Assembly (NCBI GenBank): GCA_029204225.1
Contig: CM055103.1
Coordinates: 43,102,604-43,166,603, forward strand
Length of the DNA stretch: 64,000 nt
From: Diphasiastrum complanatum
Lineage: Eukaryota; Streptophyta; Lycopodiopsida; Lycopodiales; Lycopodiaceae
Direction: 5' to 3'
A program made the translations under genes and the position numbers. Of this stretch, positions 10,950 through 61,928 are shown in pieces. The notes beneath the pieces are model-generated. The model worked only from the letters and a program-made list of their open reading frames with translations, was not told where the DNA came from and did no database searches. The first letter of the stretch is position 1. Each line of letters begins with the position of its first letter.

Positions 10950-12030
<1,081 letters not shown>

Positions 12031-12174: not shown

Positions 12175-12502
12175 TATGGAGATCTACTTGAAATACTTCT
12201 AGAAGTCAAAATTCATCTACTTCAGCTTATTCCACACATGTGAGCTGTCCTCTACACATGGGATGTGACACCTAACCAAAGGATGTGTCTCATGCAATCA
12301 ATAGATTGATGCCATGTGTCATATGTCTAGAAAACTAGTTTTTGGCTTTTTTAGCCACTAGAACTTGAATTAAATCATATGTACACCCTATATGATTATG
12401 GTACATGACAAGTACACTATTTTCACACGTGGAAACAAGCTCTACACATGTGTAATTATCCTATATACAAGTTTTTTGGCCTCTACCAAGCTTATTTTCA
12501 CA
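12175..12502 (-). repeat. Truncated 3' LTR of element B (family A)
   Basis: This matches 16,084-16,421 from GGAGAYCTACTTGAAATAC to the CACA terminus and lacks the first roughly 480 bp of the LTR. The CACA end is followed by CTCCTCAAAAATCTAGC, which on the minus strand is a purine-rich tract ending GAGGAG, as expected of a polypurine tract beside a 3' LTR. Confidence 0.8.
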
Positions 12503-12639
12503 CTCCTCAAAAATCTAGCTTGGTAAATCTAGCTTGATGGAAAACATGATGATCTTGAACTTGACTCCATGGGCTGAATTGGTCTTTGCTGGTTCAAAAG
12601 GTTTGAAGATCAGCCAATGAGCTTGATGCTGATCTGAAA

Positions 12640-12900
12640 TCACCATATCCATGATAGTGTTTCTTTGATGTTAACATCTTTGATGAATTTGAGAGCTTTG
12701 CACCATCCTAGCATCTTCGAAATTGATTCCTTCCAAATTTCATGTAGATGCTTGACTTTGAGGCTTGCTCCTTCTTCATGTGCATGCTCCTCCATGAGAA
12801 AATAAAGATTTCTTCTTGACTTACTAGGATCACAAAGATCTAACATCATGTTACCATGATCTAGAGAATTAGACTTATCCAAATTTGCAAGACTATGCAT
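12640..12900 (-). CDS. Short 3' ORF of element B, unrecognised
   Basis: The 86-codon frame begins just past the end of the long ORF and reads MHSLANLDKSNSLDHGN, later KVKHLHEIWKESISKMLGWC. It has no domain that I recognise. Its position suggests a continuation of the long ORF after a frame break. The composition (K, S, L and H rich) resembles the preceding protein rather than random sequence. It might be a third, diverged piece of the same protein or untranslated 3' sequence. Confidence 0.35.
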   Translation of the reverse strand: MHSLANLDKSNSLDHGNMMLDLCDPSKSRRNLYFLMEEHAHEEGASLKVKHLHEIWKESISKMLGWCKALKFIKDVNIKETLSWIW

Positions 12901-12906
12901 GCTATT

Positions 12907-14451
12907 TCAACAAAGTGTTTGCATCATATCTTCATGCTTGTTTACCATGCTAATCTCAAATCCAATGAGGCTAAATACTTCATTATGGAGATAAGTGTCT
13001 TTAGAAGATGATTCACTTACTCTCATAAAGAGCTTACAATTTGCCTCAATACAAATTTTCAAACTATGAGTGAACAAATCACTTTTGCAATTACATGACT
13101 CAAGAGCATACATTTGATGAAATAACCATTTGCTTTCTAATTGATTTAAAATAAATTTCAACCTTTTAAGAACATCATCTATGTTCTCAAGAGAAACTTC
13201 ATACTTAGCTAGTATGGCTTTACTCCAATTTTGAGATGCAATGATCTCACTAAAGCAAATTGATTTATCAAATGACATAAGAGAAGTAAGTATGAGATGT
13301 ATACCACATGAGATATGCTCCTCTTTCCCTTGAAATGTGAGCCACATGGAATCAACCATATTTCTTGAGTTTCTTTTTGGAATCATAACTTGAGAAGGTC
13401 TCTCCTCCTCAATCCTTGGAACACTTGAACCTTGAGATGATTCTTTAAGATCCTCTTCATGGTGCTCCTTCTTGATGGAAATCTGAGACCTCCATGTCTC
13501 ATAATGATCACAACAAGTATGACCATTAAATATGCACTTCCTATGATTATCAAGATTACTTATGCTAGAAACATAAGTCCAAAAATCACCACAACTTGGC
13601 ATGATTATTCCAATATTGAAATCAAAAGGTATTTCCATCTCAATAAGGCTAACCACTTGCTTATGGATATAAGTGTCCACTTTGGATGCTTCACTTATTC
13701 TCATAAGAAGTTTACAACTTGCCTTTAGGATTGAAAACATAAAATTTTCATCTTTATGAATGAACACATCATTCATGATCTTATTGAAACCAAAAGATCC
13801 TACATTATGAAGATATTTACATTTCCTTGACTTCATAACTAATGTAAGCTTACAAGGAAAACATATTTTGCTATCTTTTAAGGCATCACACTCAACTAGT
13901 ATTGCTTTAATCCACCTTTGAGATACAAAAATCTCTTCAAAGCAAAATGGTTCTTCATAAGTTGACATGATAGCATAAATGAAACTATTTTCATTTTGTG
14001 ATTGTTGTTTCTTATTCTTGATTGATTTCTCTTGGATCATAACAATAAGTTTGAACTTATCTAAAGTTCCAAGCAAAATACTTTCCAAGGACATAAAATA
14101 AATCCAAGTTACTTTCATGAAAGTGACATCTATCTTTGCATCTTGAAGCAAACAATGCACTTCCAAATGAAAAATTTTAAAAGATTTGACATGTGTTGTG
14201 ATGGACTCTTGAAGACAAATCTTGCAAGTCCTTGTGAGACTCCAAGCCTCATTCACCTTTCCACAAAGGAAACACCTTTCCTTGGACTTGTCCTTCTTGT
14301 ATTTGCATTTCGAACTTGAATCTCCATCCTTCTCTTCGGACCCCTTGCTTTGGTTCTTCTTGAATGGATTGGTCTTCTTTTTGTAGCATCTTGAGAAAAA
14401 ATATCCTTCCTTGCCACAAAGGTTGCACTTAGGGTCCTTTATTTCCTTCAA
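12907..14451 (-). CDS. Gag-like zinc-knuckle protein with an internally duplicated module (element B)
   Basis: The frame is open for 514 codons from a TTG. No in-frame ATG precedes it back to the upstream TAG, so the true start or a splice is unknown. Near the start is a CX2CX4GX3FX4C knuckle (CNLCGKEGYFFSRC), close to Gag CCHC but with F replacing H. A CFLCGK motif and CKICLQ follow within 40 residues, spaced by KK-rich sequence. The remainder contains two related modules, about residues 155-285 and 385-510. Each has a W-K-A-I-L motif (SQRWIKAILVE; SQNWSKAILAKYE), then CKL-MR-SE-S, DTY-H and V-SLI-EI. The W-K-A motif resembles the integrase-RT linker of the intact copia at 54-59 kb. Function is unknown. 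An RNA-binding capsid-like role is an inference from the knuckles. Confidence 0.6.
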   Translation of the reverse strand: MKEIKDPKCNLCGKEGYFFSRCYKKKTNPFKKNQSKGSEEKDGDSSSKCKYKKDKSKERCFLCGKVNEAWSLTRTCKICLQESITTHVKSFKIFHLEVHCLLQDAKIDVTFMKVTWIYFMSLESILLGTLDKFKLIVMIQEKSIKNKKQQSQNENSFIYAIMSTYEEPFCFEEIFVSQRWIKAILVECDALKDSKICFPCKLTLVMKSRKCKYLHNVGSFGFNKIMNDVFIHKDENFMFSILKASCKLLMRISEASKVDTYIHKQVVSLIEMEIPFDFNIGIIMPSCGDFWTYVSSISNLDNHRKCIFNGHTCCDHYETWRSQISIKKEHHEEDLKESSQGSSVPRIEEERPSQVMIPKRNSRNMVDSMWLTFQGKEEHISCGIHLILTSLMSFDKSICFSEIIASQNWSKAILAKYEVSLENIDDVLKRLKFILNQLESKWLFHQMYALESCNCKSDLFTHSLKICIEANCKLFMRVSESSSKDTYLHNEVFSLIGFEISMVNKHEDMMQTLC

Positions 14452-14503
14452 TATAATGCCACCTATTGATGCTATGTGAATAAAACCTGTGATATGATTC
14501 TAC

Positions 14504-15593
14504 ATATGTAATTTGTGACTCTCAAGAGACTAGATTTGAAAATCTTCAACAATCTAGAAGGATCTACAAAAGATCTAACTCACAAACCTAAGAATCAATC
14601 TTCACACTAATGACTAGTCATTTGGAAACTTTGCTTTGATCACTAAGACAAAAGCATACAATCTTTGAATCAAATCACAAAAGAAATCAGATCCACTCTC
14701 CTATTGGACTTATCAAATACCAATGACTATTTCTTTTGAAAGTTGAAATGGATATGAAAAGATTTGACACCTAGATTTTCCTTTTCACTTGACTAGTTCT
14801 CTCAACACTTGAGATTCTTGAACAAAAGATGGGTTTTTTTTTTCAAACACATGAAAATCAAACTTAATCACTTCTTTTGGACTCACTCTTGACCCAAATA
14901 ATCTCACTCTTGAGATTTAGAATGAATTTGATTTGATTTGAAAACAAACTATACCACCAATTTTTCACATAGCTTAAAAAATTTAGACAACTAGAGATTC
15001 ACAAAGATCTCAACCATGCATGAATACTCAAATATGGACTCCTCATTCTAGACATCCAATGGGATCACAAATTGAGCCTCACACTCTCACATAGAAAGTT
15101 GAACAAATCTAGAGTGATGGTACAATGAATTTCATCCTCTCACCTTGCATATCACTCCTTAATCTATGATTTTTGGCAAAATCACTCTCAACTTCAACAT
15201 GCACTCAAAAAATCAGAGATGATCAATTAATGCACCTAATTCAAGCTTCAATTTTAATTTTTTGGCTGATCTAATCCAAAATCTAATCAAAGCATTAGAT
15301 TTACTATAGAAAATGCTTGATTTTTTTTTTTTTTTTGCACCAAAAATCACTCAAATTGGGTATGTGAGTCAAATTCTACAAATTTTTGAAATTTCTCAGT
15401 CAAAACTGGATATAACAGCCTCACACGTGTGAAAAGGATTCCTATAGCCTACAACAAGATCTGGACCAAAAATTTTGAGGATAGCTATCAAATCCAACTC
15501 GCTACACAAAATTCGACTAGTTTCCAAAAAGTTGCTAATTTTGGCTTTGATTTGGATTAACCCTATCAATTTCAACAAAACCTCTTGTACTAT
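14504..15593 (-). other. Leader of element B
   Basis: About 1.1 kb between primer binding site and ORF is AT-rich and free of long frames. The part next to the primer binding site (15,375-15,593) matches 1-227. A poly-T run lies at 15,319-15,336. A long untranslated leader is common in plant LTR elements. Confidence 0.55.
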
Positions 15594-15605
15594 GCTCTGA
15601 TACCA
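15594..15605 (-). promoter_or_regulatory. Primer binding site of element B
   Basis: Plus-strand GCTCTGATACCA abuts the LTR terminus TGTG at 15,606. On the minus strand it is the standard tRNA-iMet-complementary site. Confidence 0.9.
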
Positions 15606-16421
15606 TGTGCAAAAAGTACAAAAAGGACCAAGAGTGGATCCTAATCTTATTTTCAAGAGGGATTGGCTGTCATATTACTTGATCTATCAATCTACATCAG
15701 ATTAAGATCAATCTAGATCAATTCTAGACACAAAATTCTAACAAGAACAATCATTAATTGAAGGTAAGTGTACTTTATGGTTTTACACGTGAAAAATTGT
15801 CTGAGTACGGACTCCAACCTGAAAATTAAGATAGAACCTCAAAACAATCAAAACAAATGTAGGGAGAGAATCACTCAAAATTGCTTCCAAAACCAAGATT
15901 GGTGTCTCACATTGATTATGGCCAAATGTGGTTCTATATATACAATAAGTGGGAGCTCGTGGTACTGATCATCCCTTTGATCCCACATGTGTGAAGGTGC
16001 TTTGTCATATGATGATTCGTCATGCAAAACTGACACTTGGACAAAACCTCCTATTTTGAGCACTTTTGGTCGATTTTCCTTCTATATGGAGACCTACTTG
16101 AAATACTTCTAGAAGTCAAAATTAATCTACTTCAGCTTATTCCACACATGTGAGCTGTCCTATACACATGGGATGTGACACCTAACCAAAGGATGTGGCT
16201 CATGCAATCAATAGATTGATGCCATGTGTCATATGTCTAGAAAACTAGTTTTTGGCTTTTTTAGCCACTAGAACTTGAATTAAATCATATGTACAACCTA
16301 TATGATTATGGTACATGACAAGTACACTATTTTCACATGTGAGAACAGGCTCCACAGATGTGTAATCATCCTATATACAAGATTTTTGGCCTATACCAAG
16401 CTTATTTTTGCATTTTTCACA
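15606..16421 (-). repeat. 5' LTR of element B, family A (816 bp)
   Basis: It runs from TGTGCAAAAAG to CATTTTTCACA and matches 240-1071 throughout with scattered substitutions and small gaps. TATATATACA near 15,935-15,945 gives a TATA box on the transcribed strand. The CACACGTGTG palindromes of the other copy have partly decayed here to CACATGTG and TACACGTG. Confidence 0.9.
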
Positions 16422-23089: not shown

Positions 23090-23101
23090 GCTCTGATACC
23101 A
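23090..23101 (-). promoter_or_regulatory. Primer binding site of element C
   Basis: Plus-strand GCTCTGATACCA directly before the LTR start TGTG at 23,102. Confidence 0.9.
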
Positions 23102-29441: not shown

Positions 29442-29567
29442 TGTGGAAAAAATAAAAATAAGGACCAAGAGTGGATCCTAATCTAATCCTCAAGAGAGAT
29501 TGGTTGTCAGATTACTTGATCTATCAATCTACTTCAGATTAAGATCAATCTAGATCAATTCAAGACA
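29442..29567 (-). repeat. 126-bp terminal fragment of a family-A LTR
   Basis: TGTGGAAAAAATAAAAATAAGGACC and the following bases match positions 240-365 and 15,606-15,731. The fragment begins at the LTR's TG terminus and stops where a gypsy integrase fragment begins. Confidence 0.85.
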
Positions 29568-30031
29568 CACAGGCGTATCATATCATTTAAAAAATGCATA
29601 CCTCTGTCGCTTACCAATTCTAATGGACAACCGTAATGGGTTATAATGTTCTGAAAAGGAAATTTTGCAACAATTTTTGCATCATTCCTCTTCGTCGCTT
29701 CTGCTTCAACCGTCTTAGTCACATAGTTAGTTGCTACAAGAATATAACTTCTTTTAGTATAGCGAGTGATAGGCGTAATCGGTCCAACGAAGTCAATGTC
29801 CCATTTTTTTAAATGGTGCAAGTGGAAGTATTGGCGAAAGCGGCCAATACAGTGAAAGAGTTGGTTTTCCAACTCGTTGACAAGGATCAAAGGTTTTTAC
29901 AAATGCTGCAACAATTTTGTGCATCGTTGGGCACCGGTACTTAGCATTTAAGACCTTCTTTACAATATTTGCTACTGCAAAGTGTCCACCTGCATCTTCT
30001 GAATGCGGCTCAAACAACCTTCTAGATATCA
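29568..30031 (-). pseudogene. Gypsy integrase fragment flanked by 14-bp direct repeats
   Basis: On the minus strand it starts with the zinc-binding domain (HSEDAGGHFAVANIVKKVL, FDPCQRVGK, with the first C of the pair lost). It continues with KKWDIDFVGPITPITRYTKR (first catalytic Asp) and LVSDRGMHFLND (second catalytic Asp). It ends before the catalytic Glu. ATCAATTCAAGACA flanks it exactly at 29,554-29,567 and 30,032-30,045. It is a filler-like insert and not an autonomous element. Confidence 0.85.
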
Positions 30032-31955: not shown

Positions 31956-32850
<895 letters not shown>

Positions 32851-33121: not shown

Positions 33122-34213
<1,092 letters not shown>

Positions 34214-38964: not shown

Positions 38965-39345
38965 ACAGCCCAATAGTGGATCTAGTTCTCACATGACTAG
39001 TTCAAGAAAATAGTTCACTCATCTTGCACCTTACAATGAATCTAGAAAGTTCACGCTCTTTCCTAATGATCGTGAATGCAAGATAGAAGGAACTGGTAGT
39101 GTACCAATTGGTGTTGAATCTACTATGACTCTTAAAGATGTACTTTTTGTGCCTAATCTCACTATGAATCTCGTTAATGTTGGCAAGATGCTAGATGATG
39201 GTTTCCAAGTTGATTTTGAAAAAGATGCTTGCTTGTTAAGAGGGATGGTGATGTGGTTGCAAGAGGGACTAGATGTGGGAATCTTTTCAAGTTGTAATCT
39301 AATCCTTCTAGAAGTGTGGTCAAGAGGAGCTTGGATCATCTCAAG
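38965..39345 (+). pseudogene. Copia protease and following linker, inactivated
   Basis: The plus strand reads NSGSSSHMTSSRK, where the catalytic Asp of D-S-G is Asn. A TAG follows, then LAPYNESRKFTLF, CKIEGTGSVP and DVLFVPNLTMNLVNVGKMLD. After a one-base shift near 39,240 it reads DGDVVARGTRCGNLFKL. This is Ty1/copia Pol from the protease active site to just before the GAG-pre-integrase domain. It corresponds to residues 317-430 of the copia ORF at 58.5 kb, on the opposite strand. Two point defects and the frame shift make it non-functional. Confidence 0.85.
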
Positions 39346-39526
39346 TAGGAGAAGACAATTAGGGTATCTCAACTTATGCTCCATGATGGTAAGGCTCCTG
39401 AAGATGGTGCTTTGGTAAAAGCACATGGAGAGCTATTGCCAAGTTGTTCTACTTCTCATCAATTTTCTTGTCTTGTTCATGTGGATGATCTTGTTTCATC
39501 AAGTAGAAGCAAAGATGGTGCTTTTT

Positions 39527-40334
39527 TGTTGGTTGATTATGATGAATCCCCAAGATACTCGGACAGAGCAACTCAAGAAAACCTCTCACCTTAGACCGAG
39601 GAGGTCTCTGAGAAGACGAGACTAATGAAGACTGAGAGCCGAGTATGAGAGCCGAGAAATGCTAGTTAGGAATGGCAAGCAAGAACTATGTAAGCCATGT
39701 GGTGAATCCAGGAAGATGGAATGACCATGTAGGAACTAGTATTTCTAGACAAATGTAATAAATGCAAGTAGACCCCTCTTAAAGAAAGTAGAGTGAGCCA
39801 CCTTTTGATAGTGACCTCTAGTGGAGAGCATTATTTCACTTGTAATTTGTAAAATGTGGAAATTCCACTAGGATGCCACCTAAGGAGCTCTCTTGCTTAT
39901 TTAAGGGACTCCCTCTTTGTGAAGAGGAGCTTTTTGCATTGTATCTACTCCATGCTTAATAAGAAGATTTCCCATGAGTTTGATACTACACTAAGCTCCT
40001 TGATCATGATGGTTTTCTTGAGTGATGCCCCTATGATCATGCCCTTCCATTCATATTGTGTGTGGTTGTGGATTTAGAGTGCATTAGTTTTCTTGCTTTC
40101 CTAGTTGTGGATTAGATTTCATGTTTTCTTGTGGATTAATGTAGGAGCCAGCATTCAAGTAAACTAAATAGGCTAGAAATGTGGCATAAATCTTGCATAT
40201 TCTCTAACATTCTAGTTCTTGATGTTCTTGGGATGTCCAAGAATCAAAAAACTAGTTGGTTTCTTGATTCTTGGACTTCTAACATGCTATAGATTAGTTT
40301 TTGTTTCTTGTTTTGTCAATTTATGCAAGCAAAG
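39527..40334 (+). repeat. Direct repeat E1, probable LTR (about 808 bp)
   Basis: It begins TGTTGG and is shared almost unchanged with 44,669-45,430. A plant TATA-like CTTATTTAAGG lies at 39,895-39,905. The 3' part (40,200-40,256) is missing from the other copy. No primer binding site follows and no polypurine tract precedes, so the LTR assignment rests on length, termini and repetition. Confidence 0.65.
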
Positions 40335-40530
40335 TAGAAGTAGGAATCCATCGTTGTTCAACTGAACAGTAACATAGATCATTTGTTGAACGCATTGGCT
40401 TGCATTTTGGTTGATTATGCATGTGCATTCAGTTCAAGAGTGACCCATCCGGATGTCCTCTGATAGGCATGACATAATACTACAACAAGAACCTGTCCCT
40501 TCTGTCTAATTTTGGGTTTGAACTTAAATC

Positions 40531-41180
40531 TCAACCGGAGACCTGTGTCACATCCCAACCGGAGCCCCTGTGTTACATCTCAACTGAAGGCCTCACCTCA
40601 CTCTCAACCGGAGGCCCAGCTGAAATCTCAACCGGAGACCCCAGCTGAAATCTCAACCAGAGACCCCAGCTGAAATCTCAACTGGAGGCCCAGCTTACAT
40701 CTCAACCGAAGGCCTCACCTCACTCTCAATTGGAGACCTCAGTAAAATCTCAACCGGAGACCTCAATAAACTCTCAACTGGAGGCCCATCTTAAATCTCG
40801 ACCGAAGTGTTTTTCTGGAATCTCAACCGAAGCGCTTCTTTGGAATCTTGACCGAAGCGCTTCTTTGGAATCTCGATTGGAGGGCTCACTGGAATCTTGA
40901 CCGAAGTGCCTGTTCAGATCTCGACCGGAGCCGAAGTGCCCGTTCAAATCTCGATCGGAGCCAAAGTGCCCGCTCAGATCTCGACCGGAGCCGAAGTGCC
41001 TGTTCAGATCTCGACCGGATCCTAAGTGCACACTGAAATCTTGACCGGAGCCGAAGTGATCTCGATCAAAGCCAAAGGCAGTGATCAAATCTCGATCGAA
41101 GGGATTCGATCAGATCTCAACCACAACAATCAGGTCAAAGCTCGACCGAAGCAATTAACACCCATCTCGACTAGACCATA
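40531..41180. repeat. Diverged minisatellite, about 26 units of 24-30 bp
   Basis: Each unit begins TC(A/G)ACCGGAG or TC(A/G)ACCGAAG followed by a variable tail. The left half has 24-25 bp units (CAGCTGAAATC type), the middle has GCGCTTCTTTGGAATC units, and the right half has 30-bp units (CCGAAGTGCCCGTTCAGATC type). It lies directly upstream of a gypsy Gag, where its leader should be. The SGRDLNRHFG-like protein frames across it reflect the repeat and are not a gene. Confidence 0.9.
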
Positions 41181-41416
41181 ACTTTTGATCAACACCTCGG
41201 ATTGCCATTTCGACCAAACCACCATCTTCCCAACACCTTTGAGACTGAAAAAAAAAAAAAAAAAAAAAGAGGCATGAACGCCAGTTTTTTTTTCCAAAAA
41301 AAACACCCATATCAATAGAAAGCTCTTTTCATACTGTGTTTTTCCTTGACTTCCTAAAAGAAACATTAAAAACCCTAAAAAACCATCAATACTAGAAACT
41401 CATACCCCAGTACCCA

Positions 41417-42364
41417 ATGGACCAACATACAGATCCTGAATTCCTAGACGATTATCCATACGAGGTAAGCTCTCCTATAGTTGAACAAATCAGACGCCAT
41501 AGGTTCTACAGAATGCGAACTGAACTCCAAGAGCCATCCACAAACCCATTCGAGGGCCAAGAACCTGATAGAGCTGAGTCCTCATGCGCACGACCCCAAT
41601 TTTATGGTGCTGAACCCTCACAAGCCAGAACCAACCTTAATGAAGTCTCTGCTACCCACAATGCTCATCATGAGAGATGTACACCCAAGCTAGATCTACC
41701 AAAGTTTGACGGTAGTTAGGACCCTCAAAGATTTTTGCAAATCTTTAAGAATGCATGTGATGTGTATGGCGAAACATCTCCCGATGCTATGGTCCAACTG
41801 TTTTTGATGACCATGATCGCTAAAGCACGTGATTGGTTTTTCAACCTTGATCGTGAAGATAAGACAGACTGGTCAATCTTGAAAGAGTCCTTTATCAAGC
41901 GTTCTAAGCCCTTTCACTTGATCGACAGTCCTTTTGTCAAATTGAGTAACTCACCAATGAGTCTCAAACTACTCTGAAGTCTATCTAAAGCAGTATGCTT
42001 GGTCAGCCAAACACTGCACAGATACCTTATAGACGAAAACCAATATGGTGCCCACACTGCCGGGCTACGCATCCTGCTGATGCGTCCTTCATATCGGCCT
42101 ATCCAAGCACATACAGTTCAACAATATGAAGAACAATCATCACAATCTGAAAATGCCTTGATTTATCATGAATATCCACCTGAAAGTCCAGAACCATTAG
42201 CCATACAAGGTGGCTATGCTGTTATACAAGGGCCATTTCACACCAGATGTTTCATATGTGGTGGAACTGGCCACTTCATGGCTGATTGTCCAGTCAAGAC
42301 CAAGTACCATGCTAAGTGTCCTGATTGTATTAGAAAACACAGTTTCAAAGACTGTCCGAAATAG
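41417..42364 (+). pseudogene. Gypsy Gag (partial element G1)
   Basis: Three consecutive frames make one Gag. The first starts at an ATG and contains HERCTPKLDLPKFDGS, ending at a TAG. The second has FLQIFKNACDVYGETSPDAM, MIAKARDWFFN and TDWSILKESF, the capsid domain. The third has the double knuckle CFICGGTGHFMADC and CPDCIRKHSFKDC. The protein would form particles and bind RNA. The first stop is consistent with TGG or CAG changed to TAG. No protease or pol follows. Coding similarity fades after 42,364, where the sequence leaves the homology with the copy at 45.7 kb. Confidence 0.85.
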
Positions 42365-43380
42365 CCAACTAAGATCCTACCTGCCCGTCACGTCAGTTAT
42401 GAATCACAATAGGATCCTCACGACAATAACACGAGCACCATAGCAACCAACAATTAAAACTGCTGCTCAATCGAGAAGTTTCTTATAAACTTCTACATCA
42501 CCATCCAATACACCAGCTCCATAATGCAAAAGACACTTATATGAAATGAGTCCTTGTCGAAAGAAAAGCGAAACCAATATTCTGTCATCTGCTACAATGT
42601 CCAATCAAGAGCAACCTCCAAAGGGAATTGACAATTTTTCTCCCCTTCTACAATCTCAAATCTATTTGTCTTTCCACATGCTGATAAGATTTCCAATGTG
42701 CCAATACACAATATTTCTTGGATTCGATAATCCAGATAGAGATTCGGTTCTAAATCTCTTGTTCATAGAGGTCCTCAGGACATAGTACCTCAATAATACC
42801 TGCATCTCAAGCTATATCTTACAACATCTGCTCTCAATGATGGTAGATTTTAGCATCACTCACCTTGCCTTGTTTTGACAAGGGCATGTCAAAGTAAGTC
42901 ACATTACTCTGCAAAACAACTGAAATATTGCAACTATCAAGGTACATTATCAATGTTGATGAATGCAAGTTTTGTTCGACAAGTGCTATACAGTTCTCTC
43001 TCTCTATAACGTTTGTTTATTTCCTTGTTTCTCTTCACCTATTTTGGGTGATTGATTTTTGCATGAGGAATAGCTACTGCATTAGAGTCTTCTGTAGAGC
43101 ATCTCCAGAACACATTTTCATTCATCTATCCATCTTCAGATTCCCTTGTACATCAGTTTAGGATTTTTGAAACATATGAGAAATCCACGTCAAATTAGAG
43201 TTGATTCCTGCATCTCATTGCCATATTATTTTTTGAGTCAACTACAGCAAGATCGAAACAAATTTAGTTAAAAAATTTTCAATCTTTAGTCCAGTCGCAT
43301 GTTCAACGAGTTTCAACTATGTGTTCCACACGCCAATCCAATCCTGAGCATGAACAGTTACTAGCAACAACATCCCCACC
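42365..43380. other. No clear gene
   Basis: A 79-codon frame at 42,546 (PKGIDNFSPLLQSQI) may be a remnant of the Gag-protease spacer, since 45.95-46.07 kb has EVFSNLLQAQL in the same context. The rest is AT-rich. Confidence 0.4.
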
Positions 43381-43386
43381 AACATA

Positions 43387-43417
43387 TTTTTTTTTTTTTG
43401 GGGGGGGGGGAGAGAGT
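43387..43417. repeat. Homopurine/homopyrimidine tract T(n)G(n)AGAGAG
   Basis: A run of T, then about 12 G, then AGAGAG. On the other strand it is CT, C-run, A-run, the same order as the ends of the large CT arrays. Homopolymer lengths in assemblies are often inexact. Confidence 0.8.
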
Positions 43418-44660
43418 GGATTTGCTTGGATCCATTGGAGCAGTTACGCTGTCAACAACAACACCAGCAAGATCGACAGCCAAGGTCACAAACCCAAAGT
43501 CGACAACGACAAGGCTAAGAAGACAGATGGGCAATCCAAAGCGACTCCATCAGAAGAAGTATTCCAGTAATGACGAAGATCCTTCAGAAAAGAGAAACAC
43601 AAGCATTGGAAAATCAGTCTCCTACTTCAAGCAATCTCTTGCCATACTTCTATGCCCATTCTCATGTCTATCGTCCACACCATCTACCGTTGTCACCACC
43701 ACCCTTCCTTCCATCTATTTGTTTATCATCAGTTTACTGTTCTTCTAAGAAATTTCTATTTTTGGATAGTCTTACCAAAGCAGCTGATAGATCGTTGCAA
43801 GTGTTTTGCGGAGACCAACTACCACCTATATTGGCTGTTCAGCCAAAAAAGATCTACAAAAGCAGGCGAAGCAGCTAGAAGCCATTAGAAATTAAGCAAA
43901 TAAGCTGAGGAGGAAAGGACGAAACTTAAGCAACAGCCTAAAGAGATCCAAAGGTAATGGATCAAAAGAAAGAGCTGCAGAAAAGAAAGATGAAGAGAAC
44001 CGTGAACCTACAAAATAAAGCAAGCTCCTCACCCAACAAGCGGTGGTCAAAGCTTGACATTGCAAGGGTCCAAGGCTACAACTGTAGAACTATCAGTTGC
44101 TTCATCCTTTCACCAAGCCTTCATCATGTTTTCTTACCGTTACCAAACCGTCCATCCAAAACTATTCCTACCACCAATTTTTGATGAATCCATCCCCTTG
44201 AGACTGATAATCAAAGTTTGTGCAACCTGTAGATTAAAGGTTTTCCCTGATACTGGAACTTCAACTGAGAAAAGAATTGCGGAACACCCAGAAGCAAAAT
44301 GGAGGATACAGTCCTCCCAGAAGTTAGTACTTGCCAAGAAACTAGAGATGAAACCGTCAATGGCAGATACAAGTGACAAAGCAAAGAGACACATGGAAAG
44401 CACTCGAGCATGCAAGTTGTGAAGCTGCTGAGAGCTCTCCAATTTTGAGAATGCCAACCAATTGCAGCAATAAGACATTCTGGTTAAACTGCGGCAATTC
44501 GTGAAAAACAGTTTTTGTGATAAAGACTGGCAACAATAAGCACTTAGTTTTATGTAAGCGAACGAGGATCTATGCTTTTCCAAGTGTACATCGATGCCAA
44601 TGCAAAGCGGAGCGAAATCGTCCAATATGAGTTGCAGTGGGTCCTGCAACACATTAGGGG
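43418..44660 (+). pseudogene. Coding-like remnant with coiled-coil character, possibly a captured host gene
   Basis: Plus-strand frames contain KVDNDKAKKTDGQSK near 43,500. After a poorly conserved stretch, a heptad-like run follows near 43,850-43,980: KDLQKQAKQLEAIR, AEEERTKLKQQPKEIQR, and MDQKKELQKRKMKR. The signal moves between frames and is interrupted by stops. The composition (K, E and Q rich, with serine- and proline-rich parts) is unlike Gag or Pol. It lies between a gypsy gag and repeat E2, so transduplication of a host gene is possible. I cannot name the parent. Confidence in any function is very low. Confidence 0.25.
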
Positions 44661-44668
44661 CGGGATGA

Positions 44669-45430
44669 TGTTGGCTGCTTCTGACGAATCCCCAAGATAC
44701 TCGGATAGAGCAACTCAAGAAAACCTCTCACCTTAGACCGAGGAGGTCTCTGAGAAGACGAGACTAACGAAGACTGAGAGCCGAGTATGAGAGCCGAGAA
44801 ATGCTAGTTAGGAATGGCAAGCAAGAACTATGTAAGCCTTGTGGTGAATCCAGGAAGATGGAATGACCATGTAGGAACTAGTATTTCTAGACAAATGTAA
44901 TAAATGCAAGTAGACCCCTCTTAAAGAAAGTAGAGTGAGCCACCTTTTGATAGTGACCTCTAGTGGAGAGCATTATTCCACTTGTAATTTGTAAAATGTG
45001 GAAATTCCACTAGGATGCCACCTAAGGAGCTCTCTTGCTTATTTAAGGGACTCCCTCTTTGTGAAGAGGAGCTTTTTGCATTGTATCTACTCCATGCTTA
45101 ATAAGAAGATTTCCCATGAGTTTGATGCTACACTAAGCTCCTTGATCATGATGGTTTTCTTGAGTGATGCCCCTATGATCATGCCCTTCCATTCATATTG
45201 TGTGTGGTTGTGGATTTAGAGTGGATTAGGTTTCTTGCTTTCCTAGTTGTGGATTAGATTTAATGTTTTCTTGTGGATTAATGTAGGAGCCAGCATTCAA
45301 GTAAACTAAATAGGCTAGAAATGTGGCATAAATCTTGCATAAAAGACCGGTTGATTTCTTGACTCTTGGATTTCTAACATGCTGTAGATTAGTTTTTGTT
45401 TCTTGTTTTGTCAATTTATGCAAGCAAAGC
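44669..45430 (+). repeat. Direct repeat E2, probable LTR (about 762 bp)
   Basis: Nearly identical to 39,527-40,334 except for a replaced segment near 45,341-45,350, where about 50 bp of E1 is absent. AGGGGCGGGATGA directly before TGTTGG could be a polypurine tract, which would make this a 3' LTR with E1 as its partner. Gypsy gag sequence resumes right after it. Confidence 0.65.
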
Positions 45431-47230: not shown

Positions 47231-48448
47231 TTGTCAGAGGGGGCAGACAACAAACACTCTGACAAAGCTTTCACGTCTGGTAAAGAATCACCTCAAATGA
47301 TTCCTAATGTCCCAGAACATTTTGTGGACCCACCTTTTGATCTTCCACAGAAGTTCAAAGACTTTACACTGGATGATGTTGTTATCCAGTTGCCGCAGCC
47401 ACGTCGGGAACCTACACCAAGTTCCAATTCCTTTGAAGGACCCGCCAAGACAATTTCACTAAACCTTAAAGATCCTGATGAGGACATAGATCGAATAGTT
47501 CATGTTGGTGCACATTTGTCATCAACACAATTGTCTGATCTAGAGACTTTATTACGCAAATACAGGGATGTATTTTATACCAAGATGAAAGGAATCCCCC
47601 CTGAAATAGTAGTACATCGGATTCCTCTAGAAGACAATGCTAAGCCTGTTAGGGCTAAACCTTACCACAATAACCCAGTCTATCATGAGAGGATCGACGA
47701 AGATATTAAGAAATTGCTGGATCCTGGCTTAATTTATGAAGTCCAACATACTGATTGGGTATCACCCATTGTGGTTGTACCCAAGAAAAACGGCAAGCTT
47801 CGTATCTGTGTTGACCTCAAGAACCTTAATGTGGTTATAAAGAAAAACCATTTTTCCTTGCCCCTAACGACCCAAATATTAGAGGAAATGGCGAGAGCTG
47901 AGGCTTTCAGCTTCTTGGATGGGTTCAGCGGCTATTTCATTGTTCATATAGCCCCTGAAGATAAACATAAAACGGCTTTTGCCACAGAGAGCGGCGTTTA
48001 CGCTTATAACATTATGCCTTTTGGCTTATCTAATGCCCCCTTAACATTCCAATGGGTCATGCAACTGGCCTTTCAAAATCTGTTACATCGGGTCGTGGAG
48101 ATTTATCTCGACGATCTAGGTGTACATTCTTCCGCTGCTACGTACCTAGACGCCTTGGAGAAAATCTTCATTCGCTGTCGTAGGTTCGGCATCTCACTAA
48201 ACCCTGATAAATGCCAAATATGGGTCACCCACGGGGTTGTACTCGGGCATATAATATCAAAGGACAACATTTCTACTGACCCGTCAAAAATCAAGGTTAT
48301 CGTAGACATGCCCCTACCTACAACGGTGAAGGAAGTATATGTCTTCCTCGGTCATATCAACTACTATCGCATCTTTATAATCGACTATGCAGGCAAGGCA
48401 CGTCTCGTTTATTTAGTTGTGGTAGATCCTCGCTGGACCAAATTATGA
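47231..48448 (+). CDS. Gypsy reverse transcriptase (G2)
   Basis: 405 codons. Residues about 45-60 are FTLDDVVIQLPQPRRE, found before RT in related copies. RT proper runs from DVFYTKMKGIPPEIVV through VVPKKNGKLRICVDLKNLN (183-201), FSFLDGFSGYFIVHIAPEDK (226-245) and MPFGLSNAPLTFQWVMQ (262-278) to the catalytic YLDD at 292-295. VFLGHINYYRIFI follows the palm. It copies element RNA into DNA in the particle. YLDD is intact. Relative to the copy at 1.2 kb it lacks nine bases (Ala-Trp-Asn) near residue 116. The frame ends at TGA where relatives have Trp. Confidence 0.9.
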   Translation: MSEGADNKHSDKAFTSGKESPQMIPNVPEHFVDPPFDLPQKFKDFTLDDVVIQLPQPRREPTPSSNSFEGPAKTISLNLKDPDEDIDRIVHVGAHLSSTQLSDLETLLRKYRDVFYTKMKGIPPEIVVHRIPLEDNAKPVRAKPYHNNPVYHERIDEDIKKLLDPGLIYEVQHTDWVSPIVVVPKKNGKLRICVDLKNLNVVIKKNHFSLPLTTQILEEMARAEAFSFLDGFSGYFIVHIAPEDKHKTAFATESGVYAYNIMPFGLSNAPLTFQWVMQLAFQNLLHRVVEIYLDDLGVHSSAATYLDALEKIFIRCRRFGISLNPDKCQIWVTHGVVLGHIISKDNISTDPSKIKVIVDMPLPTTVKEVYVFLGHINYYRIFIIDYAGKARLVYLVVVDPRWTKL

Positions 48449-49012: not shown

Positions 49013-50242
49013 ATGGAAAATTATTTTTTTTTAATAAAAGCAGCGCCCTTTCAGTTAATTGCAGGACAACTTTACAAAAGGGGCATTGACAGAATTATTC
49101 AGCGATGTGCTTATGAATTTGAGATACAACCGATAATATCTGAGGCTCATGAGGGCATTGGAGGTGGCCACTTTTCTATTGAGGCCACAACAAAGATTAT
49201 CCTTTGAGCAGGATTGTGGTGGCCATCTTTGTTTAAAGACAAGTTTGCTGTCATTAAAGCATGTGATGTCTATCAAAGAGCAAAGAAAAATACTAAAGTA
49301 GACTTCACACCATTGACTCCCATTATAGAAGGCGAAGCCTTCCATAAGTGGGGGATTGACTTTGTTGGACCCATCAGTCCAGCAGCGAAACATACCCAAG
49401 CTCGATACATCCTCATACCAACAAATTACGCCACTAAGTGAGTAGAGGCCCAAGCAATGAACGACGCCAATGCAAAAACAGTTGCACATTTTCTTTACGA
49501 AAACATTATTACCCGTTTTGGCTATCCCATTGAGCTTGTTAGTGATCGCGACACGCATTTTTTAAATGTTGTCATTGATAATCTCCTACGCCATTACCTT
49601 GTCGTTCACAGAAAAAGTACACCATACTATCCTAGGTGTAATGGCCAGGCTGAATCAACTAACAAGACGATCTATAAAATTCTAACCAAGATAGTTGAAA
49701 CCAGTCGTTCTGATTGGGAAACAAAACTTTTCTCAGCTATCTGGGCTTACCGCACCACCCCGAAGAAAGCCACTGGGTGGATAACCCCTTTTCACTTAGT
49801 ATACGGTCAAGAAGCGGTAATGCCCGTAGAATTCTTAGTACCTTCGCTAAGAGTTACGGAGGCTTTTTCAACATATCTTTGTGAAAAAGCTTCAATCGAA
49901 CAACAAGTCAAAACCAGGCTATTTACGTTAGCCCAGTTATGCGAGACAAGACTAATATCTTATCATGCACAACTAGTTAACAAACAACGCCAAAAAGCTT
50001 GGCATGACCATCACCTGCGCAATAAAGATCTACATCTAGGTGACCAGGTACTTCTTTATACATCAAAGAAGCACCCCAGCAAGTTGAAGTTTAGAAGTGA
50101 AGGGCCATACGTTATTAACAAAATATTTCCTAATGGTGCAGTCCAATTACAAACACTTGACAGGACACTCCTAGACACTGTCGTAAAGGGTGGTCGTCTA
50201 AGGCGGTACTACGAAGAGTTGTTCTTTGTTGACTCAATTTAG
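49013..50242 (+). pseudogene. Gypsy integrase (G2), two internal stops
   Basis: The frame is one integrase broken by TGA at 49,206 (CGA in the copy at 1.58 kb) and TGA at 49,439 (TGG in relatives). Zinc-binding residues are HEGIGGGH and CDVY, the last Cys changed to Tyr. The core has WGIDFVGPISPAAK (Asp), LVSDRDTHFLN (Asp) and RCNGQAESTNKTIYKIL (Glu). The C-terminal part reads AWHDHHLRNKDLHLGDQVLL and ends GGRLRRYYEELFFVDSI. Integrase inserts the DNA copy into the chromosome. The stops and the lost Cys make it inactive. All defects are G-to-A or C-to-T. Confidence 0.9.
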
Positions 50243-51306
<1,064 letters not shown>

Positions 51307-53099: not shown

Positions 53100-53111
53100 G
53101 CTCTGATACCA
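53100..53111 (-). promoter_or_regulatory. Primer binding site of a copia fragment
   Basis: Plus-strand GCTCTGATACCA directly before TGTGAAAAATC. It marks a minus-strand element whose leader lies at about 52,800-53,099. Its gag and pol are not present to the left. Confidence 0.85.
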
Positions 53112-53913: not shown

Positions 53914-54588
53914 TGTAAAAATTACAGCAAATAAGGATCCTAAAACACTTGAAATGATGAGGGAAACAATAGATTATGATTTCATAAGATTAGCACAAGT
54001 TGAACCATCAAAATCCATCAAAAATCTATGCTTGCACCTCACTAAATGGCCCAAATCCTTGAAGAAGGCTTCACACGTGTGAAAGTACGGCCTCCCACAG
54101 TCTGAGTACTATACACCAGACCTACATTCAATCCTATAATCATTAGTAATCACAAGTACTCAAACAATTATGAACATAGAGAGCAATTGCACCATTATGA
54201 GAGAAAAATCATGAAATTGCTTGATTCATTTTGATCATCACCTATATATACATGATCCATCACGGTTTTGGGCAGGTATGAGTAGCCCTAAACCTATCCC
54301 TAATGCTAATTTTGGTGGATCTTTCATCCCTACCAAGTTAGGGTTGGAATCTTGGAGATCCCTCAACAATGCAAAAATTACCAAAAATAGCTCCTATTTT
54401 TTCTCCCTTGTATCTAAGCATAATTTGGACTCATTCCAAAGGTTATAACACTTAGGTCTACTTGAGAACATCCTTATGAATGGAATCCTATGCTATTTGG
54501 CATGTGTGACAAGCCACATCATGACCATCTAACTATTTACAAGTCATATGACCAAAACTAGTCAAGCTAGAATTGTGAATTTTTAGCA
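53914..54588 (-). repeat. 3' LTR of element H (675 bp)
   Basis: From TGTAAAAATTAC to AATTTTTAGCA. TATATATA at 54,243-54,250 provides the TATA box on the minus strand, and CACACGTGTG lies at 54,072-54,081. Confidence 0.96.
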
Positions 54589-54602
54589 CTCCTCCTCACT
54601 AT

Positions 54603-56054
54603 CTAGCTTGGTTCAATCATTGCTTTACTAATCACTCCAAGTGATGATCTGAACTTCATAAAAGGTGTCTTTTGAAGTGGTTTAGTAAGTAGATCAGCTA
54701 CACATTCATTGCTTGGAACATGCTCCAAAGCAATCTCCTTGGCTTGCACCATTTCTCTCACAAAGTGATGACATATCTCAATGTGCTTAGATCTTGCATG
54801 GAAGATTGGGTTAGATGCAAGGTGTTGGGCTGATATATTGTCATTGTAGATGATTGGTGCCTCCTCTGAATCCATGATCTTTAGCTCCACCAATAATCTC
54901 TTGATCCAAAGTACCTCCTTTGTAGTGGTTGTCAAAGCTTTGTACTCGGCCTCGGTTGAAGATAGAGATATAGTTTCTTGCTTTTTTGAAAGCCATGAAA
55001 CCACACCTTCTCCTATGAAAGTTGAATAGGCACTTGTTGATTTCCTATCCCTCTTGTCCCCTGCAAAATCTGAATCACTAAATGCATGAAGGTTAATCAC
55101 ATCTCCTCTATATAGAATCCCAAAATCCAATGTACCCGAGATGTATCTTAGAATCCTCTTAGCCTTTTTCCAATGGATATTCAATGGCTTTTGCATGGAT
55201 TGGCTCAACCTACATACACTAAAGCTAAGATCTGGTCTAGTTATAGTGATCCACATTAAGGAACCTATAAGTTGCCTAAACAAAGTGATGTCCATGAAGG
55301 ATCTTTCATCATCTTCATTTGGCACTTTGATATCTTGCTCCATTGGTGTGTCAACACTTTTGCATACTTCCATCTTAAACTTCTTCAAAAGACTTTGAGC
55401 ATAGTTTACTTGACTTATAAAGATAAAATCAGACCCTCTAAGTACTTCTATGCCTAAGATGAAGTGAAGACACCCTAGATCTACCATCTTGAACTCTAAG
55501 GATAGATCTATCTTGATTTTTTCAATACCATCAACACTATTTCCACTAATGATGATGTCATCTACATAAATGAGTAAAAGTACAATACCAACATCATCAA
55601 ACTTAATGTAAAGAGTGGGATCATATTCACTTTGAACAAAAGAAAGTGAAATAAGATAGCAATGTAGTCTTGAATTCCAAGATCTCGAGGCTTGCTTCAA
55701 GCCATAGATGCTTCTTTGGAGATGGCATACTTTGTTCTCCATTTCATGCTTGATGAACCCTTGTGGCTGCTCCATATAGATATTCTCTTCCAAAAAACCA
55801 TTCAAGAAAGCATTAGAGACATCTATTTGACATAGAATCCATCCAAAATGTGATGCAAGTGCAATGATTAGCCTTATTGTGACCATCTTGGCCACGGGTG
55901 CAAAAGTTTCCTCATAGTCTATCCCTCTCTCTTGAGCATAACCTTTTGCAACTAGTCTTGCTTTATGTTTGTTAACACTCCCATTTGCATTCAACTTAAG
56001 CTTGAAGACCCACTTGCATCCTATTACATTCCTTTGAGGTCTCTCAACAAGCAA
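54603..56054 (-). CDS. Copia reverse transcriptase and RNase H (element H)
   Basis: 483 codons. The frame starts within conserved RT sequence ([20 protein letters not shown]), so the listed start is where homology resumes after the frame break and not a real initiation site. RT motifs are [55 protein letters not shown] and the catalytic YVDD near residue 163. RNase H shows [19 protein letters not shown] near 330, [12 protein letters not shown] near 370 and [16 protein letters not shown] near 425. The last residues, [21 protein letters not shown], are the normal copia C-terminus. Every catalytic residue is present. In an intact element it is made as part of a single Gag-Pol polyprotein. Confidence 0.95.
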
Positions 56055-56070
56055 CCAAGTTTCATTCTCA
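56055..56070 (-). other. Frame break between integrase and RT in element H
   Basis: Upstream coding ends NSKEWYKD then TGA. The RT frame is already open a few bases earlier and reads [12 protein letters not shown]. The two overlap in different phases, and the spacing is shorter than in relatives, which fits a small deletion. This is the only coding lesion found in the element. Confidence 0.8.
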
Positions 56071-58560
56071 ATCTTTATACCATTCTTTGGAGTTCAATGC
56101 ATCTTCAACGTTAGATGGTTCTTCAAATATAGATGAAGCATAAGAAGTGGATGAGATACCCTCAACTTGATGTCCTTTGCCTTGATATGTGAGCCTTGAT
56201 GGCTCCACTTTTTCCCTTGAAGATCTCCTTGGTGTGATAGGTGGGTTTGGTGCTTGCTCCTCCATGAGCTCCTCCTCAAAACCAAGATCTTGCTCCTCGG
56301 CCATCTTCTTCTTGATTGTTGGAGCACTTGAGCCTTCTTCAAGCATATGCATATGATGTTCATCAAAGATGACATCCCTTGAAACAACAAATTTGTTTAA
56401 GGATGGGAGATAGACTTTGTAGCCCTTGCTTGAGCTTGCATATCCAAGCATGATCCCTCTTGTGGAAGATGGATCCTCCTTGGTTCTTGTTTCCAATGGC
56501 ACATGCACATAACATATACACCCAAAAACTTTCAAGTGATTTAGATTGGGTTTATTTCCATACAACATCTCATAAGGAGTTTTGCTTTCAATTGCTTTGC
56601 AAGACACCCTATTCATCAAGTAGTTTGCACATACAAGAGACTCACCCCAAAAGGATTTGGGCAAACAAGCATCTAATCTTAAAGCCTTAGAACATTCACA
56701 TAATGTTCTATTCCTTCTTTCAGAAACTCCATTTTGTTGAGTAGTGTAAGGACAAGAAGTCTCTTTCTTGATCCCTTCCTCCTCACAAAAGGCCTTGCAC
56801 TTATTGGAGATGAATTCTCCACCATTGTCACTTCTAAGAATCTTGATGCTATGATTATGATGCTTTTCCACAAACAACTTGAACTTTACAAAAGTATCAA
56901 ATACTTGAGACTTGAAGGAAAGTAAGAACACCCAACAATATCTTGAGTAGTCATCAATGAAGGTTAAAAACATGGATGAAACTCCATTAGATTTGGTGCT
57001 AGCAATGTGCACATCTGAGTGTATGAGTTCAAGAGGATGAGATGACTTTGTGATGGATTTAGGAAACACCTTCTTATGTGCCTTGGATAAGGCACAAGCT
57101 TCACAAACCTTGTCTTCCTTCCCAATAGACCTTGGTAGGCCTAAAGCATACTCCTCCTTGATCATAGCCTCCATGGAACCCGAGTTGACATGTCCAAGTC
57201 TTTTGTGCCATAAAGTAAAGGTAGATATCTTGCTCTTCTCGGCCAACATGACAACATTAGTATCCACAAATGCATCCAACTTATAAAGTTTGCCAAGTCT
57301 AGTGCCCTTAGCCACTATCTTACCCTTCTTCTTGATGAAACATTCATTTGAAGCAAAGTCAAAATTGAAACCATTGTCTACCATTTGGCCAACACTTAGT
57401 AGATTCTTTGTTATTGTAGGAATGTACGAAACACCTTCTATGTTGATCTTTTTGGAAGATCCTAAGCAAAGGGGAATGCTACCAACTCCTTCAATCTTAC
57501 AAGCTTCATCATTTGTTGTATAGATAGACTTTATAGGTCCATCATAAGATAAGAGAGAAGAGAAAAACTCCCTTTTACTAGTCATGTGTGAACTAGCACC
57601 CGAGTCAATCCACCAAGGATCTTCTCCTTTGAAGCTTGTTGAAGAAAATATGGACATCATGAGAGAGTCCTCATGTGAACTCTCCTCATCCTCCTCTTTG
57701 CTGATGTTGGCTTGGCTTTGATCTTGCTTCCTCTTGAAGCATTCCGAGGCATAATGCCCCATCTTGCTACAATAGTAGCACTTCACCTTTGATTTGTCCT
57801 TCTTGACTTTGGTGGTTGATGGAGATGCCTTTGAGGGTCCTTCCTGATCCTCAAGCTTTGTAGACTTCTTGAATGTTGATCCTTTTCCTTTGGACTTGCC
57901 TTTGCCTTTGGTGAAGAGAGCTTGTTCATCTCCACCTTGGATGGAAAGCCTATCCATCCTCTCTTGCATTTGGCTCCTTCTTGATTCCTCGGCCATGAGT
58001 GTGCCTTGGAGTTCTTCAAGTATGGGTAGCTTACCCATAATTGCATATCCCTGAACCAAATTGTCAAATTCAAAGCTTAGTCCATTCAATATGAGTTGAA
58101 CAAGCTCTTCATCCTTGATAGGATCACCTATAAAGGCTAGCTCTTTGTTCAATTCCTTTACTCTTAGGACAAAAGTATGTGCACTCTCTCCTTTCTTTTG
58201 ATAGCTTCTATAGATTTGATTCTTCAAAGCTAACATTCTAGTTTGGTTCTTGGATTCATAGACCTTTTGCAAAGTCTCCCAAGCATCTTGAGATGAAGTG
58301 CAATCTCCTACCTCTCTTAAGAGTTCATTTGCAACATTCATTTTTATGCAATGTAGTGCAACATTGCACCTCTTGATGTATTTGGCTTTTTCTTGAGGAT
58401 GAATAGGTTCACTCTCCTTACCATTTACAATTTTCATCAGATCTTGCATGATCATGATGGATTCCATTATAACTTTCCATATGGAATAGTTAGTTTTGTT
58501 GAGCCTTTCATTAGTATCCAAAAGATATGCATTTATAGATGCATCTAGTCTCCTAATCAA
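56068..58560 (-). CDS. Copia Gag, protease and integrase (element H)
   Basis: 830 codons from a TTG. No in-frame ATG was found back to the upstream stop, so the original start codon may be mutated. Gag N-domain: [23 protein letters not shown] knuckle, [14 protein letters not shown], lies at residues 261-274, after a K-rich linker. Protease: [14 protein letters not shown] near 316-329. GAG-pre-integrase: [15 protein letters not shown] and [12 protein letters not shown] near 450-495. The integrase core has Asp in HSDVH (about 517), Asp in RSDNGGEF (about 580) and Glu in [13 protein letters not shown] (about 613). These form particles, cleave the polyprotein and insert the DNA. The frame ends before RT at the break described separately. 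Confidence 0.95.
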
Positions 58561-59332
58561 GGACTTGACACAAATGAAGGTTACTTCTATTGATTTGATT
58601 GAAGGTCTACCTTATCCCACTTCTTAGGGACCTGAAAAGATCAGTAATAGACTTCCTATAAAGATCTAAGAATGATCTCTAACAAAATCAAATCATAGAA
58701 TACTAGAAACAATGCACTTGCTTGATTGAAGTAGACAACACTAGTAGAATTGCCCCTCTTTCTATAAAGAACATTAAAGCTTCCAAATGATCTGATCAAG
58801 AGTGAATTTCAGCAACCTAATATACTTCCAAAATCACTTGTAAAAGATCTAAATGGAACTTAATGAGGATGCAACACAATCTACTATCCAATCACAAGCA
58901 AAAAATGATCAAAATTGATCTAATTTGGTGCATAAGTCAAGCAATGGTTGGACTGAACCTAAATCACTTTAGGAGGTGCCTACTACACCTTAGAACAGCC
59001 TTGAAGAGTCCCCAAAACTATGATCTTCCCTCTCCTTGAATGCTAGAAAGCCTCCTCTATGAAATCACCTCCAAAACTCGCTTAGAAATCAATGCTTGGA
59101 GCAAGCAAAAACTTGCTATCTTGGTAACGTGAATTGAATTCAACCTCGCCTCTGGTTTTAGACACCTAAACACCTGAAAATGAAGTCACACAACACCAAT
59201 CTCCAATGTATTTGACTCACTTTGAGTTCTAGAATCAATACTAGATGCTAAGATCCAATCTACACAAGATTTAGATCAAAAATTTGATCAAATTGAATGA
59301 AAACCAAGGATTTAGCTCATTTCAGCCTTTAG
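58561..59332 (-). other. Leader of element H
   Basis: About 770 bp between primer binding site and Gag, AT-rich and without long frames. On the minus strand the first Gag codons follow AAGTCC directly. Confidence 0.7.
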
Positions 59333-59344
59333 GCTCTGATACCA
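59333..59344 (-). promoter_or_regulatory. Primer binding site of element H
   Basis: GCTCTGATACCA on the plus strand abuts the LTR start at 59,345. The minus strand is the tRNA-iMet-complementary TGGTATCAGAGC. Confidence 0.95.
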
Positions 59345-60023
59345 TGTAAAAATTACAGCAAATAAGGATCCTAAAACACTTGAAATGATGAGGGAAACAA
59401 TAGCTTATGATTTCATAAGATTAGCACAAGTTGAACCATCAAAATCCATCAAAAATCTATGCTTGAACCTCACTAAATGGCCCAAATCCTTGAATAAGGC
59501 TTCACACGTGTGAAAGTACGGCCTCCCACAGTCTGAGTACTATACACCAGACCTAAATTCAATCCTATAATCATTAATAATCACAAGTACTCAAACAATT
59601 ATGAACATAGAGAGCAATTGCACCATTATGAGAGAAAATTCATGAAATTGCTTGATTCATTTTGATCATCACCTATATATACATGATCCATCACGGTTTT
59701 GGGCAGGTATGAGTAGCCCTAAACCTATCCCTAATGCTAATTTTGGTGGATCTTTCATCCCTACCAAGTTAGGGTTGGAATCTTGGAGATCCCTCAACAA
59801 TGCAAAAATTACCAAAAATAGCTCCTATTTTTTCTCCCTTGTATCTAAGCATAATTTGGATTCATTCCAAAGGTTCTAACACTTAGGTCTACTTGAGAAC
59901 ATCCTTATGAATGGAATCCTATGCTATTTGGCACGTGTGACAAGCCACATCATGACCATCTAACTATTTACAAGTCATATGACCAAAACTAGTCAAGCTA
60001 GCTAGAATTGTGAATTTTTAACA
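59345..60023 (-). repeat. 5' LTR of element H (679 bp)
   Basis: TGTAAAAATTAC to AATTTTTAACA. The TATA box on the minus strand is TATATATA at 59,674-59,681. CACACGTGTG lies at 59,503-59,512. It has an extra CTAG near 60,000 compared with the 3' LTR. Confidence 0.96.
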
Positions 60024-60028
60024 CTGGC

Positions 60029-61897: not shown

Positions 61898-61928
61898 GCT
61901 CTGATACCCTGTTATAGCTCTGATACCA
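61898..61928 (-). promoter_or_regulatory. Duplicated primer binding site of element I
   Basis: GCTCTGATACCA abuts the LTR at 61,917-61,928. GCTCTGATACCC occurs 19 bp to the left at 61,898-61,909, followed by TGTTATA, which resembles the LTR start TGTTGGG. A 19-bp duplication of the LTR/primer junction is the simplest reading. Confidence 0.8.

Follow-up and report, generated by a model that had tools for sequence, protein, structure and literature searches.

A 514-codon open reading frame (ORF) on the minus strand of the analysed stretch of Diphasiastrum complanatum DNA (64,000 bp in full, hereafter the window) lies in a non-autonomous Copia-type LTR retrotransposon, and it is probably a shrunken gag-pol frame with a tandem duplication, kept open by selection in the ancestors of the present copy. 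The element itself is a known type of non-autonomous Copia derivative; its duplicated remnant frame is unusual. It spans 4247 bp as preserved, and its parts are listed below in their 5' to 3' order on the minus strand, with residues numbered along the ORF. H denotes a Copia element elsewhere in the window, marked by LTR-like repeats (53914-60025, 97.9% identical) and a gag-pol split over two frames that overlap, 847 and 496 codons long (54606-58611, minus strand).

15606..16421, minus strand: 5' LTR, TGTGAAAAATGC...TTTTTGCACA, ends read from the sequence
15594..15605, minus strand: primer binding site (PBS) TGGTATCAGAGC, directly after the 5' LTR, found by pattern search
14452..15593, minus strand: leader, in which gag capsid coding was not found
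12907..14451, minus strand: 514-codon ORF from an ORF scan, with its TAG at 12907-12909
14386..14427, minus strand: degenerate Gag zinc knuckle C-x2-C-x4-Y-x4-C, residues 9-22, from shuffle-tested alignment and motif scan
14041..14259, minus strand: eroded integrase start, residues 65-137, matching H 501-581 (0/1000 shuffles as high)
13597..13989, minus strand: block 1, residues 155-285, a linker/RT-start piece plus CKL...EI
13630..13722, minus strand: CKL...EI cluster, copy 1, residues 244-274
13219..13467, minus strand: second integrase-RT linker copy, residues 329-411, matching H 751-846 (0/1000 shuffles as high)
12910..13299, minus strand: block 2, residues 385-514, a linker/RT-start piece plus CKL...EI
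12952..13044, minus strand: CKL...EI cluster, copy 2, residues 470-500
12643..12906, minus strand: 88 further sense codons past the TAG, in frame and coding-like
12503..12513, minus strand: polypurine-tract-like (PPT-like) TTTTTGAGGAG, before the 3' LTR, read from the sequence
12175..12502, minus strand: 3' LTR, first 328 bp only, identified by its match to the 5' LTR

The paired LTRs with TG...CA ends (the 3' LTR lacking its outer end), the PBS and the PPT-like tract accord with an LTR retrotransposon of the Copia superfamily, and they bear out the non-autonomous LTR element proposed in the first-pass annotation. The preserved 3' LTR piece was 95.679% identical to 16085-16408 over 324 bp (14 differences), and a longer alignment that extends beyond the LTR edge held 23 differences in 341 columns. 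Past 12175 the match to the 5' LTR ended and was followed by AT and TC microsatellites. Uninterrupted TC/CT microsatellites of 126-192 bp occurred at 11847-11972, 32545-32736, 33124-33301 and 51141-51300, the first of them near the broken LTR end at 12175. The PBS, which we take to be of the tRNA-Met type, was also found after the LTR of H; across the window its 12-mer had six minus-strand copies (228-239, 15594-15605, 23090-23101, 53100-53111, 59333-59344 and 61917-61928) and none on the plus strand. Ahead of its 3' LTR, H carried AGCTAGAT and then a purine tract resembling that of the element. The element region gave no blastn match to the LTR of H at E 1e-3, so that the partner element may be one other than H, and the H frames searched against the leader (14452..15593) gave nothing below E 1.

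Within the window, the ORF was present in one copy only. A second copy of the LTR and part of the leader at 1-1071 (91.5% identity over 1072 columns, blastn), cut by the window start, did not cover the ORF, and a third piece of LTR/leader sequence measured 128 bp (29442-29569). Just beyond the second copy, 1065-1393 and 1401-2030 matched a Gypsy region (47454-47770 and 49029-49657), so that this copy seems to be inserted into a Gypsy element. Elsewhere, a direct repeat pair (39527-40334 and 44669-45429; span 39527-45429; 808 columns, 91.8% identity) enclosed a zinc-knuckle frame at 41978-42361, and a frame just outside it (39014-39415) aligned to H. Rfam at gathering score and a tRNA scan found nothing in the window.

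The long frame first noticed in this region was confirmed. From stop to stop it comprised 530 codons (12910-14499, minus strand), a length with a chance of 1.5e-16 given how often stop triplets occur locally. Over the same stretch, the remaining five frames contained 25, 28, 32, 51 and 63 stops. The in-frame codon score of the ORF (0.042) exceeded those of 500 of 500 mononucleotide shuffles (maximum 0.038); three held-out retroelement frames scored 0.056, 0.044 and -0.015. The ORF start at 14451 is a TTG, a start of the bacterial code, and the first in-frame ATG was codon 112 (window 14118), downstream of both cysteine motifs. None of the 14 ATGs in the leader (14452-15600) opened the ORF frame, and an in-frame TAG stood at 14500-14502. 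Past the terminal TAG, the 88-codon continuation had a codon score of 0.051 and a chance of 0.0023 at the stop frequency of the ORF region, for a stretch noticed post hoc. It weakly resembled the stretch after block 1 (46/2000 shuffles as high for protein, 16/1000 for DNA), so block homology may continue weakly past the TAG, which looks as if it lies inside a second unit.

Four pieces of the ORF aligned with H in the order of H. The knuckle stretch (residues 2-47) matched H 271-316 with 0/1000 shuffles as high, the integrase start and the second linker copy matched equally clearly, and the first linker piece (residues 150-182) matched H 815-846 weakly (7/1000). The resemblance to the integrase-RT linker of Copia Pol claimed earlier is supported by residues 329-411. 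These pieces were only 30-33% identical to H. When the window was searched with the complete ORF by tblastn, H was the top match outside the element itself (E 4e-8); searched separately, its frame H1 matched the ORF at E 5e-9 and H2 gave nothing below E 2. The long tblastn alignment ran, with gaps, from the integrase start through block 1 to the second linker; it paired CKL...EI with the integrase core of H, which conflicts with block 1 as a linker copy. Internal deletion is therefore not shown by tblastn itself and rests on the piecewise matches, which were trusted more.

The remnant order of knuckle, integrase start and linker is that of H; Pfam recognised no domain in these remnants, and the body of RT was not detected. 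The ORF yielded no capsid, protease, integrase core, RT or RNase H by Pfam or by alignment to H, and in full length it stayed without a Pfam match up to E 10; the H frames, as a control, yielded gag, knuckle, gag_pre-integrase, rve and RVT_2. When the four pieces were submitted alone, only the N-terminal one returned anything, namely two non-knuckle zinc families whose E values of 0.45 and 4.7 are at chance level. The two knuckle-like motifs reported by the first-pass annotation survive in part: the first aligns to the knuckle of H but has its His replaced by Tyr, strict CCHC being absent from the whole ORF, and the second (residues 60-79) overlaps the piece aligned to the integrase zinc-finger region of H, where two H cysteines have become N and W. 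The label 'Gag-like' is not supported, as a capsid domain was not found, the knuckle is degenerate and an integrase start stands between knuckle and linker. The frame therefore looks like a gag-pol that kept its order, lost internal parts and gained a tandem duplication, and not like the supposed Gag knuckle newly joined to linkers.

The two related blocks, along with W-K-A-I-L, CKL and the other motifs, were located where they had been claimed. Residues 155-285 and 385-514 aligned with a score of 163 (shuffle maximum 57, 0/1000 as high), and the CKL parts alone scored 112 (shuffle maximum 49, 0/1000 as high); judged by these alignments, the two blocks are homologous. The CKL parts showed no match to H (128/1000 and 902/1000 shuffles as high). 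A derivation of CKL...EI from H was accordingly rejected, separate tblastn with H giving none except the gapped H1 alignment through block 1. A repeat of the integrase piece as its source (251/1000 and 565/1000 shuffles), a further knuckle relating residues 280-340 to 50-100 (988/1000 shuffles) and a third copy of the module in the window (two-block profile against six frames, best other E 0.94) were likewise rejected. With the first linker matching H weakly and CKL...EI unmatched to it, part of the frame may originate elsewhere.

As claimed at first, CKL...EI resembled nothing that was searched. Neither block matched Pfam at E up to 10, and Pfam, NCBIfam, PHROGs and PDB gave no convincing match to the ORF or to CKL...EI; the best NCBIfam match, with E 0.019 and 15.3 bits where the cut-off is 147, lay in the linker part, and the best PHROGs value was E 0.032. 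Viral contigs, a collection of viral sequence without plants, gave no pattern match with the ORF and 94 with the block alignment, among which were 0 relatives; bacterial and archaeal genome contigs, again without plants, gave 44 pattern matches and 0 relatives with the block alignment. At title and abstract level, with partial journal coverage, no description of the architecture was found in the literature.

The blocks differed at about 40% of nucleotides without codon-position bias (mismatch 0.415, 0.392 and 0.423 at the first, second and third position), and their DNA-only alignment was in codon phase at all 390 columns counted; over the whole alignment, its gap lengths, ends included, were 3, 3, 3, 39 and 3, 12, 1, 2. 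Depending on the alignment, dN/dS was 1.05 (0.68-1.58; 133 codons) or 0.93 (95% interval 0.57-1.46; 113 codons), and by halves it was 1.74 (0.97-3.46) and 0.69 (0.35-1.30). The same method applied to seven Copia/Gypsy control pairs gave 0.00, 0.00, 0.13, 0.21, 0.30, 0.45 and 1.11, of which the zeros reflect saturated dS and the last is a pair of 26 codons at 23% identity; three ORF pieces against H gave 0.48 to 0.76, with wide intervals. Neutral simulation of the blocks at 0.45, 0.55 and 0.63 changes per site produced 6.6, 7.8 and 8.5 stops against 0 observed, with probabilities of no stop of 0.0015, 0 and 0 (2000 runs each), under a model that presupposes base composition and transition share and for an ORF noticed for being open. 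A simulation that rejected stops without residue constraint yielded a mean of 39.3 identical residues against 38 observed, so stop avoidance suffices over the whole blocks. Given the lack of stops despite drift and a dN/dS near 1, openness was apparently kept while most residues drifted.

With 2.2% change accumulated per copy after insertion, the ORF would be expected to have gained 1.8 stops, and the probability of none was 0.16 (2000 runs, substitutions only), so the intact ORF of the present copy needs no selection since then. Of 'selection or youth', the explanation first offered for the open frame, youth alone can thus account for the intact frame of the present copy, and the older, stop-free divergence of the blocks is not expected under neutrality; the excess of synonymous change that the first-pass annotation asked for is absent over the whole blocks.

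Only CKL...EI hints at residue constraint. Between its two copies (residues 244-274 in the first), 15.7 of 73.8 nonsynonymous and 9.3 of 19.2 synonymous sites had changed (pN 0.21, pS 0.49), and its identity in a 31-codon window was reached by 23/5000 permutations and 25/1000 simulations without residue constraint. At lengths of 20, 25 and 35 codons, 245, 63 and 201 of 5000 permutations reached it; Fisher's test within the cluster gave P 0.085, and codon positions 1 and 2 against the rest gave P 0.0007. Since the stretch was chosen after inspection, these values may be taken as a hint only. The W-K-A-I-L cluster was low in both classes (pS 0.20, pN 0.23).

In the history that we consider probable, the element would have kept its cis signals (LTR, PBS and PPT-like tract) and been copied in trans by proteins of an autonomous Copia element. 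Its gag-pol would have shrunk until knuckle, integrase start and integrase-RT linker remained, and the unit of linker and CKL...EI would have been duplicated in tandem within the frame. The ancestral frame would have been translated and held open by selection, most residues drifting and the enzyme and zinc-binding residues being lost. The present copy is probably dead, given the lack of an ATG before codon 112, the TAG in the apparent second unit and the truncated 3' LTR. The missing ATG, the truncated 3' LTR and the degenerate knuckle would also suit a plain dead copy, that is, an internally deleted Copia element that is open by recent origin and luck and was never under selection in its shrunken form; a block dN/dS near 1 and the probability of 0.16 for an intact ORF since insertion fit it as well. 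We nevertheless hold it unlikely, as blocks about 40% apart in nucleotides carry no stop (P at most 0.0015 under neutrality), all counted block columns are in phase, and 530 codons are open even though the pieces matching H have diverged to 30-33% identity.

Three further explanations turn on CKL...EI. It might be a domain used twice in a working accessory protein, for example in packaging or targeting, translated after splicing or from a non-AUG start; the lower rate of nonsynonymous change in the cluster and the 31-codon identity peak speak for this, but the cluster was picked post hoc, weakens at the other window lengths and fails to stand out by Fisher's test, no start codon was found before codon 112, and the domain databases returned no convincing match, which makes such a protein very unlikely. 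Comparably improbable is that selection held the frame open over a long time with nearly all residues free except the repeated CKL...EI, because translation itself or the motif was needed; if so, either the act of translation (through frame length, message stability or ribosome occupancy) or a small motif used twice would be what the element requires. Finally, CKL...EI could be a piece of a plant gene that was picked up and then duplicated. Gene capture by plant LTR elements is documented in PMC7264820, and CKL...EI matches neither the H frames by shuffles nor a Pfam retroelement family, but a Pfam search up to E 10 found nothing for either block and the sole NCBIfam match falls in the linker part, far under its cut-off; the chance of a captured gene therefore appears slight.

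The element was compared with the known systems closest to it. H has a Copia gag-pol collinear with the ORF pieces and the same PBS 12-mer, but its two overlapping frames encode gag, protease-side, integrase and RT domains, and it lacks CKL...EI by shuffles. An additional ORF (aORF) of plant LTR elements accompanies gag-pol and is shared by all or most copies of the family concerned; of the present ORF, the window contains a single copy. BARE-2 has a gag frame without a start codon and keeps pol; the missing start codon is shared, whereas only remnants of pol exist here. BARE-2 is also named in PMC6022998, where LARDs are defined as LTR elements of at least 2 kb without a recognised coding domain. 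By that rule alone, an element of 4247 bp with 0 Pfam families for its whole ORF is a LARD, from which its long open frame with gag-pol remnants and a duplicated module sets it apart. A TR-GAG, which corresponds to the Gag-like reading of the first-pass annotation, carries a GAG domain only, or GAG and protease (same source); here the knuckle lacks its His and no GAG domain was recognised, the ORF and its pieces giving neither a gag nor a zf-CCHC Pfam match, both of which H gives. Rice Tos17 (PMC3977881) is a mobile Copia element that lacks gag and, as its author argues, borrows Gag from another element. The absence of gag and the 12-base PBS, quoted there for Tos17/Lullaby, are common to both, but Tos17 keeps gag_pre-integrase, rve and RVT_2 in an ORF of 1,058 residues, and in the present frame, which carries a duplication, no Pfam domain is recognised. 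The Tos17 type, with gag absent and pol intact, does not describe an element in which pol is found only as remnants with no domain recognised.

What the frame means would depend on other copies of the element. Should they disagree, the element would usefully illustrate how duplication in a decayed gag-pol can mimic a new architecture. Should they agree, a non-autonomous element would have held on to a protein frame although the protein itself was not kept, and the question would be what it gains from translation.
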